Source: a virus
IMG/VR virus record: IMGVR_UViG_3300032163_000055
Span: 1-37,421 of that record
Length of the DNA: 37,421 nucleotides
Direction: 5' to 3' (one strand)
In this document: piece by piece, positions 16,311 to 37,421 of the stretch
Layout of the letters: each line of letters starts with the position of its first letter
Numbering within the stretch: the first letter of the stretch is position 1
Program-made: the position numbers and the translations under genes
Notes under the pieces: generated by a model
Databases searched by the model: none
What the model saw: the letters and a program-made list of their open reading frames with translations, nothing else
What the model was told of the DNA's origin: nothing

Positions 16311-16942
16311 TCAGCCACCTGTTTCGACCTCCAGTTTCCGCTTTAACGCCGCACTCTGTTCCGCTTCTTCTCGACGAGCCCTAACCGCTTCACGCGCGCC
16401 CTCGATGACTTCGAACGCTTGCATCAACCATTCCGGCTGATCGAGGACGCCGCCCATGACCGGGAGGGTGTTTAGCGACTTGCACCGCCCCCACAGCGAC
16501 AGCAGAGCGACTTCGGCCCTCTCGATCTTCGGCATCCCGCACAGCCCGCACGGCTTTCCACCGGGACAGTCCCGGCGCTTACAGTCGAATGTTCCCGCAT
16601 CGGCGTACCATTCCGCTATGCGGGCAAGACGTTTTTTGCTTCTGCGTCCTCTTTCACGATGTCCGTCGAATTGAGGATGAAATTCCCGAGCGACAAAAGG
16701 ACATTATCCTTTCCGTTGGGGAGCATATCGAGCAACGCCGGGTTGTACGCGATGGGCTTGCCTTCCTGCGTGACCCCGCGCCAGCCGACGACCATGCGCT
16801 CAATGACGGCGCGCATGAACGAGGCGGTGTCTTTGCCCATGATGACGACGAACTTGTCTGCCGCTGACGCCTTCGGCTTGACAAGGAACGTTACGTCACC
16901 CGCGACGAACTCCAGCGGCCTTTCTGCGACCATCAGTTCCAT
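16311..16942 (-). CDS. Tail assembly chaperone GT fusion made by -1 frameshift, 210 aa
   Basis: Ribosomes reading the 108-residue chaperone meet A AAA AAC at 16637-16631 in the right phase. After a -1 slip they continue through 32 extra codons, then into the 74-codon frame ending at 16311, with no stop between. The product is residues 1-104 of G, then a linker with four cysteines (CKRRDCPGGKPCGLCG) that could bind zinc, then the T part (MPKIERAEVALLSLWGR onward). The T part has no Shine-Dalgarno site of its own. In lambda, G and GT bind the tape measure and recruit tube protein. Confidence 0.85.
16594..16637 (-). promoter_or_regulatory. -1 programmed frameshift signal: A AAA AAC, 6-nt spacer, stem-loop
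   Basis: The slippery heptamer AAAAAAC (16637-16631) is in the canonical X XXY YYZ phase with the GCA AAA AAC codons. After GTCTTG comes a perfect 7-bp stem (CCCGCAT with ATGCGGG). Its loop is 17 nt and contains a second GCG/CGC pairing. The zero-frame stop TAG lies inside the stem-loop (16618-16616). Confidence 0.9.
16616..16942 (-). CDS. Tail assembly chaperone G, 108 aa
   Basis: The ATG at 16942 has AAGGAGG at good spacing. The protein starts MELMVAERPLEFVAGDVTFL and has a helical middle (DTASFMRAVIERMVVGWRGV), matching a tail chaperone between the tube and tape measure genes. It ends four codons after the slippery site. It is the major product, with the GT form made at low frequency. It helps the tape measure fold and recruits the tail tube, and is not part of the virion. 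Confidence 0.85.
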   Translation of the reverse strand: MELMVAERPLEFVAGDVTFLVKPKASAADKFVVIMGKDTASFMRAVIERMVVGWRGVTQEGKPIAYNPALLDMLPNGKDNVLLSLGNFILNSTDIVKEDAEAKNVLPA

Positions 16943-28614: not shown

Positions 28615-30102
28615 TTACGCCCAATCCGGCCTCTGCTTCGTCGCCGTCCACGGCGCGCCGACGTTCGTACTGTACCCTGCCGCTGGCGCGCCGCTTGTCC
28701 TCGCCCGCATGTACTGAACCGCTTGCGTCATGCTGTCAACGTCGTCGTCGTGTTCGGCGTACGGAAACTCGCAAAGATTTTCACGGAAGTCCACCACCCA
28801 CGGACACGATTGCGCTTCCGGCAAGAACACCATCCCGGCTTCGATGGTCGGTGCGACCATATTAACACGAACCACCTTGTCTTTGTCAACCTTCACCGGG
28901 ACGATGGGCAACTTCAACAGCTTCAAGTCTTGAATCAACGATTGCCCGCTTGATGCGTCCTCGACGAGAAGTGCTTGCGCTGGCCTCGCCGCGAACTGTT
29001 CCATCACCTCGCGCTTCAGCGCGGGGTATTCCATCTTCCCTTTCACGCGATGCAGTAGGCAGAATCCTTCCGTCGTCGCGCTCCAGTACGTCCCTACCGA
29101 GTAATCGTTTTGCTCGCCCTCTTTAACCGCCGTGTCCCAAGACCAAATACGGAACAACTCGCCCCGCATCGGCATCGCCGGATTATAACTCCTAAACCAC
29201 GCGCGTTTCAATAGCGCTCCTTCTTCCGCGCTCGGTCTTTGGAGATATTGCGCTTGGTAGGCACGCGATCCCATCAGGATTTTGAGGGGAGCAAGTTCCG
29301 CTTCGCTGTCACGTTCAGGTGCGAGCAACTGTCCAGACTCCTTCACGATGACGCGACCGGACATGGGAAGGATGTACTCGGTACGCTCATCGTAGCTTAC
29401 TGGCATAATAAGCTGGGTCCATCCACCGCGCTTCGTGAGGTGTGCCGTCACGTCTTGGGCGTGTAGCCTCTGCTCGACAAATACCATCTTCCCGGTTCGC
29501 TTGTCGTCAAGACGGCTTGACCATGTGTGGTCGATGAAGTCCAACGTTCGTTCTCGTTCAGCAACGCTTTCGGCCATGTCGGGATTCAGAACGTCGTCAC
29601 CAATCAGCGTGTCGCCGCCCTTGCCCGTCACAGTTCCCCCGGTGCTGGTTGCGGTCATGAGGCCGCGCCGGGTGTTCTCAAACTCCGTCTTGACGTTTTG
29701 GTCCGTCGCCATACACACAAGGTTCCCCCACCTCGCCCGGAAGTCGGGGCTCTCCAATATGCGACGACGCTTTATGGAATGTTGGGTTGATAGGCCGGAT
29801 GAGTACGAACAGAACATGAAGCGCCGGGAAGGGAACTGCGTCCACTCCCACACAGGCCACATGACCGTCACGATGTTGCTCTTGCCGTATCTTGGGGGGA
29901 TGTTCACGATGAGCCGCAACAGCTTCCCATAGGTTACGGCTTCAAGGTGTTCGCATATCACGTCCAGGTACTCGCTGTCGATGAACGCTCGCCCTGGCTC
30001 AATGACAGTCCAGAAGTCCGTGACGAACTGCTTCAACCTGATCTGCTCGGCACTTACGTCCCTCGCTATCGCGAGGAGAATGTTACTCGTCAGCGGCTTC
30101 AT
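28615..30102 (-). CDS. terL: Terminase large subunit, 495 aa
   Basis: The ATPase part has a Walker A variant PPRYGKS at residues 69-75 and a Walker B region LIGDD at 166-170. The nuclease part has acidic residues in WDTAVKEG (Asp323), VEDASSG (Glu381, Asp382) and HDDDVDSM (about 452-456). It starts 20 bp inside the end of terS. The longer frame to 30162 is disfavoured. With TerS it packages DNA into the prohead through the portal. The headful or cos mode cannot be told from sequence. Confidence 0.9.
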   Translation of the reverse strand: MKPLTSNILLAIARDVSAEQIRLKQFVTDFWTVIEPGRAFIDSEYLDVICEHLEAVTYGKLLRLIVNIPPRYGKSNIVTVMWPVWEWTQFPSRRFMFCSYSSGLSTQHSIKRRRILESPDFRARWGNLVCMATDQNVKTEFENTRRGLMTATSTGGTVTGKGGDTLIGDDVLNPDMAESVAERERTLDFIDHTWSSRLDDKRTGKMVFVEQRLHAQDVTAHLTKRGGWTQLIMPVSYDERTEYILPMSGRVIVKESGQLLAPERDSEAELAPLKILMGSRAYQAQYLQRPSAEEGALLKRAWFRSYNPAMPMRGELFRIWSWDTAVKEGEQNDYSVGTYWSATTEGFCLLHRVKGKMEYPALKREVMEQFAARPAQALLVEDASSGQSLIQDLKLLKLPIVPVKVDKDKVVRVNMVAPTIEAGMVFLPEAQSCPWVVDFRENLCEFPYAEHDDDVDSMTQAVQYMRARTSGAPAAGYSTNVGAPWTATKQRPDWA

Positions 30103-30580
30103 TGGGCTTGAAGCGCTTGGCGATGGTTGCAAGGTCAGCGGCCAGCATCTTCCTGAAACCAAGCTGGTGCTGACAGGCCGGGCATACGTCGGGCATCCTT
30201 GAATGTACGATCCCCACGATGGACTTCACGACCTCTTGGGCCGACTCGTTCGTTTCCGCAGACCCAAGGTGGAGGTTATCCTTCCTTCCGAAATCCTTGC
30301 TGTGGCGGCGCTCCAGCCACCAAGCCGACGCTTGCCAGCTATTTTGCGCGGCCACCTGGACCACACCAACGTTCCGGCTGATCGCTTCGGCATCGCTCTT
30401 TTTAACACGCTCCGCGAAGTCCGGGTTGTCTGCCACGTACTCATACAGGGTGGACTCCCCGATCCCAGCTATTGCGGCGGCGTGTTTGCGGGGAACTCCG
30501 TTACGAATCTCGCGGCAAATGACCTCGATCAACTCAGGCGTTAACTTGGTTTTGCGCCCCATCTTTCGCTTTCTTTTCAT
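30083..30580 (-). CDS. terS: Terminase small subunit, 165 aa
   Basis: The N-terminal helix-turn-helix (TPELIEVICREIRNGVPRKH, then GIGESTLYEYVADNPDFAER) matches small terminases that recognise the packaging site. The middle is helical and forms the oligomer core, and a C-terminal piece has a CPAC motif. It overlaps the end of the upstream methyltransferase-like gene by 47 bp. The ATG at 30580 has only a weak Shine-Dalgarno site, and ATG 30562 is possible. Confidence 0.85.
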   Translation of the reverse strand: MKRKRKMGRKTKLTPELIEVICREIRNGVPRKHAAAIAGIGESTLYEYVADNPDFAERVKKSDAEAISRNVGVVQVAAQNSWQASAWWLERRHSKDFGRKDNLHLGSAETNESAQEVVKSIVGIVHSRMPDVCPACQHQLGFRKMLAADLATIAKRFKPNEAADE

Positions 30581-31766
30581 TGGCTTTCTTTATTTCAAGG
30601 GCATCCAACGTCAACTCACACATCCGTCCGAGGATCGTCGTGATGTTCCGAATGTTCTCCGACTTGGCTACTTTGCGCGCGGCGACCTTGAAGGCGTCAA
30701 AGGTCGGCCTATCGGCAACAAGTATGTCCGAACCACACTCCGCTGTCAAGACCTCGACGACTTCTTCGAATTTCTTACGCTGGTGGGGGAGGAACACGAT
30801 ATTGACCACCTCAAAGTCGATAGGGAGGGTGATATTCTGGAATCCAGCGGTTTCAAACTTCACTTTGAGGTCGATTTCTTCGATGGCGGCTTCGATTTTG
30901 GCTTCCACGTCACCGATCAGGTCGTACAACTCCTTCAACTTTTGTGGGTCGTCCTTGCCGTTTATTGCGTTGTGGGCCAACTGCTTCGCCATTCGGGATT
31001 CTGCGAGTTCCTCGGGCTTGGTGACGAGGAAGTATTCGTACTTGTCCTTGCCGACCTCCTCCGCGAAGAACACCTCGCCCTTTTCGAACGGCTTCAAATC
31101 CTTGCCGTAGTATGACCAAATGAAGGACGCCGGGTTGCGCCGGGACTCGTCGAACAAGTCACCGAACTCCTTCTTAAAATCGAGTTGCGCCACCCCGCTT
31201 TGCTCGGCCCCGGCCTCAACCTTGAACATCTTCTCATAGCCACGGCTGTACGCGGGGGCATGGATTATGACAACCGAATCGGCGGCGGGGGTGCTGATGA
31301 TGTCACGGAGGTCGCGCTCGACGTATGTGACCCCTGATAGGGCCGCTTTGTTCTTCGCCAACAGCGCCCCCACAGCGCCCGCGTGCTGGGCTATATTCTC
31401 CCGGTAGTGGTGCTTGTACTGAGCCTCGTAAACCACCTCATCCCGAAGCTGGGCGATTTTGAATAGGGTGATGATCCATCCCGCCTTAACCTCCTCGGGG
31501 AGCCCATCGGGAACGCCCGGATAGTCCGGCACGGGCTTTCCGGCGTAGTAGTACCCAAGCACCTTTGAGAAAAAGCTGATGTCGGACAACTCGATGTTCT
31601 CGGGCTTGTACCCCGCCGCGATGGCGACGCTTGCCAGCTTCATCGTGCCACAACACGGGATCAACAGCTTCGGCTTGGTCTTGACGAGGATGGACAGGGC
31701 ATCGTGGTAAAACGAGCATTGCACCTGTTTGGAAACACCGAGGAAAACGCTCTCGATGTTTTTCAT
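30534..31766 (-). CDS. Methyltransferase-fold protein with a degenerate catalytic motif, 410 aa
   Basis: Residues 30-70 look like the SAM-binding Rossmann core (KLLIPCCGTMKLASVAIAAG, then IELSDISFFSKVLGYY). At the place of the DPPY motif of N6-adenine DNA methyltransferases stands HAPAYSRGYEKMF, so the catalytic D/N-P-P-Y is not intact. The second half is helical and charged. It may be a DNA modification enzyme with changed chemistry, or a DNA-binding relative that lost methylation. The start at 31766 is only 5 nt from the tRNA-like element and has no clear Shine-Dalgarno site. Confidence 0.55.
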   Translation of the reverse strand: MKNIESVFLGVSKQVQCSFYHDALSILVKTKPKLLIPCCGTMKLASVAIAAGYKPENIELSDISFFSKVLGYYYAGKPVPDYPGVPDGLPEEVKAGWIITLFKIAQLRDEVVYEAQYKHHYRENIAQHAGAVGALLAKNKAALSGVTYVERDLRDIISTPAADSVVIIHAPAYSRGYEKMFKVEAGAEQSGVAQLDFKKEFGDLFDESRRNPASFIWSYYGKDLKPFEKGEVFFAEEVGKDKYEYFLVTKPEELAESRMAKQLAHNAINGKDDPQKLKELYDLIGDVEAKIEAAIEEIDLKVKFETAGFQNITLPIDFEVVNIVFLPHQRKKFEEVVEVLTAECGSDILVADRPTFDAFKVAARKVAKSENIRNITTILGRMCELTLDALEIKKANEKKAKDGAQNQVNA

Positions 31767-31770
31767 GAAA

Positions 31771-31845
31771 TGGCTGCGGGTCCAGGGATCACACCTGTAT
31801 CTTCGGAGCAGAGCCCCGACGTCCTAGTAATTAGACGACCCCGCA
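31771..31845 (-). tRNA. tRNA-like element, Gln-type sequence with altered invariant positions
   Basis: 75 nt fold as a cloverleaf: TGCGGGG pairs with ACCCGCA (6 of 7), discriminator G and encoded CCA, D-stem GTCT/GGAC, anticodon stem TCGGG/TCCGA, 4 of 5 pairs in the T-stem. The overall sequence resembles bacterial tRNA-Gln(CUG). Departures: the loop GCTCTGC lacks U33 and puts UCU, not CUG, at 34-36; D-loop AATTACTA lacks G18-G19; T-loop TGTGATC lacks T55-C56. It may be a degenerate or decoy tRNA. Confidence 0.55.
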
Positions 31846-31854
31846 ATGGAACGG

Positions 31855-32244
31855 TTAAAACAAAACGATTTGATTGTCGGGCGGCGGCGGTTCGTGGCCC
31901 CACTCGGGAACGAACACTCCTGTCTTTCGCTGAATCCAATCCGCAACCATCCGTCTGTGACACCAATCGCCCGGCTTTTCGAAACACATCATAGCCTTTC
32001 CGTCGAATCGTTTCAATAGAGTGGCCGGGTTGAACCTCGACAGCACCTCGTCCTCGTACATTTTGACCCACGCCTCTCGCCCAATGATGCTCGACGCGAA
32101 TGGACCCTTGGGCATCATCTTCCACGGCGGGGCAAGCTTGGGCTCCCAATCCTCGCAATCCACGGCCCACGACGGAACCATGTTGCTGATCGCAACGCCC
32201 GGAATATCTCGCTTCCGGTTGGAGTAATAGGAAGTGAATAACAT
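31855..32244 (-). CDS. DUF488-like protein, 129 aa
   Basis: The C-terminal CFEKPGDWCHRRMVADWIQR block is the signature of DUF488 family proteins, with MLFTSYYSNRKRDIPGVAIS at the start also typical. DUF488 function is unknown. The order DUF488-like gene, tRNA-like element, methyltransferase-fold gene suggests a nucleic acid modification or defence-evasion group. A promoter -10 box lies 7 nt before the ATG, so the mRNA may be leaderless. Confidence 0.75.
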   Translation of the reverse strand: MLFTSYYSNRKRDIPGVAISNMVPSWAVDCEDWEPKLAPPWKMMPKGPFASSIIGREAWVKMYEDEVLSRFNPATLLKRFDGKAMMCFEKPGDWCHRRMVADWIQRKTGVFVPEWGHEPPPPDNQIVLF

Positions 32245-37030: not shown

Positions 37031-37421
37031 CTACTTCCCCTCCCCGCCTTCGGGCTTCGCGGGCGCAGTCCGTTTGTCATAGTCGGCCTTGCTGTTCTCG
37101 GCCACCAATTCCATAACCTTGATGCTGGCGGCGTACCACTTCGCGTGATAGGTGTTCTTGTGGGTCGCCTTGACGAGCGCGGCAAACTCTTTGAGCGTCA
37201 CGGTCTTGCACCCGCAATGGACCATGTAGCCTCCTTCTTCCCATCGCGCCCAGGTGTAGGAATTGCGTGAGCCTCCGGGTCCGAAGGAGTGGTAGCCGGA
37301 CAGGTTGGCCCCGGACAGGTTGGCCCCGCACAGGTCGGCCCCGGACAGGTTGGCCCCGCACAGGTCGGCCCCGGACAGGTTGGCCCCGGACAGGTTGGCC
37401 CCGGACAGGTTGGCCCTGGAC
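37031..37421 (-). CDS. Pentapeptide-repeat protein, C-terminal part (gene crosses the window ends)
   Basis: It enters from the window end in the repeat frame, gives about eight more A(N/D)LSG units, then [20 protein letters not shown] and a C-terminal domain ([40 protein letters not shown]). That end domain accompanies pentapeptide repeats in other phage proteins and is not part of the repeat helix. The gene continues at 1-305 in the same frame. Its stop at 37031 abuts the next ATG. Confidence 0.85.
37297..37421 (-). repeat. 15-bp tandem repeat array (right part)
   Basis: The same 15-bp units as at 1-207 continue in phase to the last base. No exact long overlap between the two window ends is present, only the shared repeat, so the true copy number at the join is unknown. 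Confidence 0.85.

Follow-up and report, generated by a model that had tools for sequence, protein, structure and literature searches.

The window analysed here comprises the whole 37,421 nt of an IMG/VR virus record (IMGVR_UViG_3300032163_000055). Its first 50 bases recur at position 37332, which yields direct end repeats (1-90 and 37332-37421; ~90 nt assuming that they extend to the terminus) located in a tandem-repeat stretch. Judging from these repeats, the record probably represents a complete or circular genome of ~37.3 kb. On the minus strand, a tRNA-like element takes up most of the 88 nt that separate a DUF488-like gene from a gene for a DAM-like protein, with the terminase genes located further downstream. 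The relevant features are:

31855..32244, minus strand: 129-aa DUF488-N3a protein, upstream of the element
31771..31845, minus strand: tRNA-Gln-derived tRNA-like element, 75 nt, encoded CCA at 31773-31771
31839..31845, minus strand: acceptor stem, 5' strand TGCGGGG; partner 31775-31781, 6/7 pairs, G7.A66 mismatch
31821..31836, minus strand: D arm, stem 4/4, loop AATTACTA (31825-31832) without GG
31803..31819, minus strand: anticodon arm, 6 pairs including G32-C38, 5-nt loop CTCTG (31809-31813), U33 missing
31782..31798, minus strand: T arm ACAGG/CCTGG, loop TGTGATC (31787-31793), A49.G65 mismatch adjoining G7.A66
31771..31781, minus strand: acceptor 3' strand ACCCGCA, G73 and CCA
30534..31766, minus strand: 410-aa DAM-like protein, PF22555 over aa 8-183, C-terminal part matching phrog_7405
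28615..30580, minus strand: terminase small and large subunits, downstream

The tRNA-like element

A preliminary description of this DNA had reported a 75-nt cloverleaf with encoded CCA, close to tRNA-Gln, at this position. All of this is borne out, except that plus-strand coordinates had been given with the strand unstated, while the cloverleaf folds on the minus strand only; the plus-strand reading gave no proper tRNA cloverleaf on folding. With its loops in brackets, the element reads TGCGGGG TC GTCT [AATTACTA] GGAC G TCGGGG [CTCTG] CTCCGA AGAT ACAGG [TGTGATC] CCTGG ACCCGCA GCCA. The stems are thus retained, with 19 of the 21 standard pairs present and G7.A66 and A49.G65 as the two failures, while loop letters have been lost. 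A normal tRNA-Gln of a phage (L013:8995-9068) begins with exactly the same 16 nt. From the set of tRNA-Gln determinants, i. e. U1-A72, G2-C71, G3-C70, G10, G73 and U35 G36 A37 (PMC9976931), the element carries U1-A72, G2-C71, G10 and G73; its 3-70 pair is C-G and the anticodon elements are absent. Both U33 and the 7-nt anticodon loop of decoding tRNAs are missing: position 33 is a C, and a G32-C38 pair can form that closes the loop to five nucleotides. The preliminary description was correct in noting the loss of U33 and the shift of the anticodon CUG to UCU. The element is not a normal tRNA.

Detection by standard tools is weak. The Rfam tRNA family (RF00005) scores it at 24.1 bits, so that the covariance check suggested in the preliminary description falls below the gathering cut-off of 29; the match has an E-value of 0.0046 for 221 nt and 4227 families, from which we calculate ~2e-4 for the tRNA family alone across the whole window. 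An Rfam scan of the whole window did not report it, nor did ARAGORN under default scoring, and under relaxed scoring ARAGORN called a tRNA-Arg(tct). The fold z-score is -1.7, 7 of 100 shuffled 800-nt sequences reach an equal pairing score, and a pairing-only scanner could separate neither this element nor its counterpart in Microbacterium phage ValentiniPuff (see below) from shuffled sequence. Since pairing alone is not decisive, the case rests on sequence, position and the 32-38 pair. Two further ideas were dropped or left unclaimed: an attP remnant, as no integrase occurs among the scanned proteins and a whole tRNA rather than a 3' part is present, and a 5-bp antiparallel kissing interaction of D loop and T loop (AUUAC with GUGAU), which is possible yet expected by chance in an estimated ~9% of cases.

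The ATG of the DAM-like gene follows the CCA by 4 nt rather than the 5 nt given previously, and it lacks the clear Shine-Dalgarno sequence seen on many other genes of this phage. The encoded protein matches DAM-like/GNAT-like relatives over the DAM-like part only (aa 31-236); a domain search detected no GNAT domain in it, and no ParB-like gene was recognised beside its gene. The family motif (S/N)PP(F/Y) reads HAPAY in this protein, so its methylase activity may be lost.

Elbow letters in phage cloverleafs

According to the preliminary description, G18-G19 had become AC and T55-C56 had become GT, and a normal elbow could not form. The second change is correct. The first holds in one register only, while in the common AAT-GG-CTA register GG is replaced by UA. 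For comparison, phage tRNA loci from IMG/VR were scanned with a cloverleaf finder blind to the elbow, which returned 602 unique cloverleafs vs a single one in shuffled sequence; elbow statistics refer to 598 of these, the window element and a few doubtful matches being left out. G55 occurs in 43 of the 598, 42 of which lack GG in the D loop and nearly all of which carry A18. The elbow letters covary, A18 with G55, U56 with A19 and, in one case, G56 with C19. Among the 61 cloverleafs with changed T55-C56, 46 obey a simple rule (18-55 as G.U or A.G, 19-56 as Watson-Crick pair), compared to a mean of 5 and a maximum of 15 in 2000 permutations. Such alternative elbows also exist in the cultured Aeromonas phage 4_4572, Ochrobactrum phage OC and Pseudomonas phage Astolliot, and tRNA finders under-score phage tRNAs that bear them.

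With G55 and U56, the window element satisfies one of the two elbow pairs in each register and never both: in the AAT-UA-CTA register A19-U56 fits and U18.G55 does not, while in the AATT-AC-TA register A18.G55 fits and C19xU56 does not. Hence, the element is half-compensated rather than simply destroyed, and the earlier verdict on its elbow stands for the canonical pairs, which are lost, with the reservation that one alternative pair is kept and that phage tRNAs often compensate. The nearest elbow design was found at L099:7361 (D loop ATCAACTA, T loop GGTAGCA). The alternative-elbow tRNA of Aeromonas phage 4_4572 is an unannotated tRNA-Met at 16886. Compensated-elbow tRNAs are present in L030, L037, L050, L060, L081, L099, L104, L107, L113, L128, L141 and L142, and three contigs (L037:3130, L084 and L106) share a conserved tRNA-Gln(UUG) whose T loop is GGCGGGG and whose D loop is AATGAGTA, the flanks in L106 being unlike those in L037 and L084.

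tRNA-likes upstream of related genes

Searches for relatives of the element itself were negative. Pattern scans of IMG/VR for the T arm, the D arm or both elbow halves returned only chance matches or normal tRNAs, blastn against phages and plasmids gave no match, the records of terminase relatives (36-46% identity) contained no Rfam tRNA match, and IMG/VR scans with the portal and DAM-like proteins revealed no relatives. As no close relative was found, covariation within its own lineage is absent. A genome scan for a host tRNA-Gln returned only two Hymenobacter tRNAs, and the host was therefore not assigned. As a side observation, Rfam located two adjacent Hymenobacter tRNA genes with anticodon-loop inserts of 46 and 57 nt (L017:2482-2593 and 2634-2755; the same in L018 on the minus strand), which ARAGORN missed and whose large inserts are possibly introns.

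The DAM-like gene, on the other hand, could be followed further. Its protein led by tblastn to Faecalibacterium phage FP_Brigit, and the FP_Brigit protein to Mycobacterium, Microbacterium and Gordonia phages as well as plasmids. In these relatives the DAM-like domain (PF22555) is fused to a GNAT-phage-like domain (PF22559), and a ParB-like gene usually comes after it. The sole tRNA in the 61.7 kb of FP_Brigit, a near-normal tRNA-Lys (CUU) with bulged T stem and A18, precedes the relative, and in ValentiniPuff the sole tRNA-like, which has a 6-nt anticodon loop, is found at the end of the record, immediately ahead of gene 1. A tRNA-Gly-like directly upstream of the relative is present in all eight mycobacteriophage records (Jeon and kin), where a genome-wide Rfam search did not report the Jeon-type RNA. 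Gordonia phages Clawz (L162:1547-1620) and Soos (L163:1468-1541) carry unannotated upstream tRNA-likes that ARAGORN missed, while it did find those of four plasmids (Streptomyces M54, ITFR-21 and NBC_01201, Streptomonospora phiM2), which are unlisted in the plasmid gene table, as this holds no RNA genes. Two Peribacillus plasmids and one Salmonella plasmid have no tRNA-like within 700 nt upstream of the relative; in the two Peribacillus plasmids a DUF488 gene is located upstream, as in the window.

An alignment of seven actinobacterial elements with that of the window (n=8) suggests a common design. Paired letters fill 168 of 176 cells, and double-sided changes affect 17 of 22 pairs, a value that mixes family and kin because the window sequence supplies several of them; sliding the partners as a control left 66-91 paired cells and 3-8 double-sided pairs. 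All eight elements have G-C or C-G at 32-38 vs 6 of 601 (1%) ordinary phage cloverleafs, a rule that was spotted after the fact. The 5-nt anticodon loops left by this pair are TTCCA, TTCCG, CCCCG, ACCCT and, in the window, CTCTG. Six of the eight D loops lack GG, and the window element shares with ValentiniPuff the G7.A66 and A49.G65 mismatches along with the T arm ACAGG/CCTGG. Glycine identity depends on G1-C72, C2-G71, U73 and C35 C36. The ends of the actinobacterial elements are of glycine type (GCG..., U73), and most of their anticodons are of UCC or CCC type; all seven carry both the GCG acceptor start and U73, which the window element lacks. Taken together, the latter is probably a divergent member of a positional tRNA-like family upstream of PF22555 genes. 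No description of such a family was found in the open-access papers searched, although novelty is not thereby proven.

Possible roles of the element

At this locus, a tRNA-Gln-derived cloverleaf has lost its decoding letters and kept its stems, and tRNA-likes lie beside relatives of the same gene elsewhere. Because odd tRNA-likes precede related genes in unrelated phages and plasmids, a conserved RNA with a role outside protein synthesis is probable, and we propose, with a probability of roughly 0.5, that the element is a non-decoding, tRNA-derived partner RNA of the DAM-like gene directly downstream. The RNA would be transcribed and processed like a tRNA, given its CCA end, but would serve EF-Tu and the ribosome poorly in view of its missing canonical elbow, the A49.G65 and A51-U63 positions and the closed anticodon loop. 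An enzyme of the cassette may then bind it, most likely as aminoacyl donor or as docking RNA for a base-modifying reaction. GNAT-fold Fem enzymes take amino acids from aminoacyl-tRNA; the donor or docking proposal draws on the fusion of DAM-like and GNAT-like domains in the relatives and on the glycine-type determinants of the actinobacterial RNAs. For the window itself, with its Gln-type acceptor and no detected GNAT domain, a partner role would be the weaker case. A more specific and rather doubtful version is a tRNA-dependent DNA hypermodification, in which the charged tRNA-like would hand its amino acid via the DAM-like/GNAT-like enzyme to a base of the phage DNA. Phage Mu Mom makes glycine-bearing adenines, and in the actinobacterial members the RNAs of glycine type could offer a possible route to modifications of this kind.

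Several known RNAs bear comparison. The non-proteinogenic tRNA-Gly of S. aureus, which is reserved for peptidoglycan synthesis by Fem enzymes, has lost G18G19, carries A49/A51-U63 and has stems weak for EF-Tu (PMC4052509, PMC9976931). Similarly, in the window element G18G19 is replaced, A51-U63 is present, 49-65 is altered and a CCA end is retained, while the actinobacterial relatives share the Gly-type acceptor ends and UCC/CCC-type loops. In contrast to the S. aureus RNA, however, the window element has an acceptor of Gln type and an anticodon loop closed down to five nucleotides, and it is linked to a DAM-like gene instead of cell-wall genes. The Bacillus cereus pseudo-tRNA tRNA-Other is likewise non-canonical and thought to act outside translation, being reported within a larger regulatory RNA (PMC3399842), but tRNA species and context differ. 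Mammalian, MALAT1-derived mascRNA-type tRNA-likes, whose cloverleaf is cut by tRNA enzymes (PMC9976931), also lack a proper anticodon loop; homology is not claimed.

The element could instead be a decaying phage tRNA-Gln gene devoid of present function, as the preliminary description had considered. Its single copy, the Rfam score under the cut-off, the two broken pairs, the loss of U33, the half-compensated elbow and the lack of close relatives would all agree with decay. Yet the element has lost 6 of the 16 conserved loop letters and retains 19 of 21 pairs. When 98 canonical phage tRNAs were decayed in silico by uniform mutation, no number of mutations yielded such a combination (at least 6 of 16 letters gone, at least 19 of 21 pairs intact) in more than 0.33% of runs; as the element was picked for its oddness, this is supportive only and not a p-value. 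Alternative-elbow phage tRNAs from the survey similarly have at least 5 loop letters lost with 19-21 pairs intact. Moreover, odd tRNA-likes hold the same position in unrelated relatives. The element is thus probably not a product of plain decay, and a rather low probability is given to this explanation.

The absence of a clear Shine-Dalgarno sequence at an ATG so close to the CCA would also suit a structured 5' region or processing mark, where excision of the RNA sets the mRNA 5' end or the fold controls translation. While the link to the gene implied by this earlier suggestion is supported, the RNA and the gene are separated by terminator-like hairpins in the Gordonia phages (strong), ValentiniPuff and FP_Brigit, at spacings of roughly 60-170 nt. 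The RNA there is therefore likely a separate transcript, which favours an independent small RNA over a 5' leader and renders this alternative quite improbable. Slightly less credit is given to a decoy or resistant mimic for host anticodon nucleases: the anticodon loop is changed and closed, and phage tRNAs have been reported to escape nucleases through anticodon-loop mutations (PMC10264068). Those tRNAs still decode, however, whereas the phage-borne window element has no U33 and a closed loop, and the constant place beside the DAM-like gene as well as the variety of tRNA species would be left unexplained. Least probable of all is an ordinary decoding tRNA with alternative elbow, read as Arg(UCU). 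Alternative elbows are indeed common in phage tRNAs and relaxed ARAGORN scoring favours this call, but U33 is kept in 576 of the 598 surveyed cloverleafs, G32-C38 closes the loop, and the phage seldom uses the codons AGA and AGG (3.4 and 5.8 per 1000).

If the partner-RNA reading is correct, phages and plasmids bear a dedicated non-decoding tRNA-like within a DNA-modification-like cassette, which would tie an aminoacyl-tRNA-like RNA to a GNAT/adenine-methylase-like enzyme in a concrete and testable way and provide a function for part of the seemingly "useless" phage tRNAs. Several of the cassette tRNA-likes are now annotated as ordinary tRNA-Gly or left unannotated.
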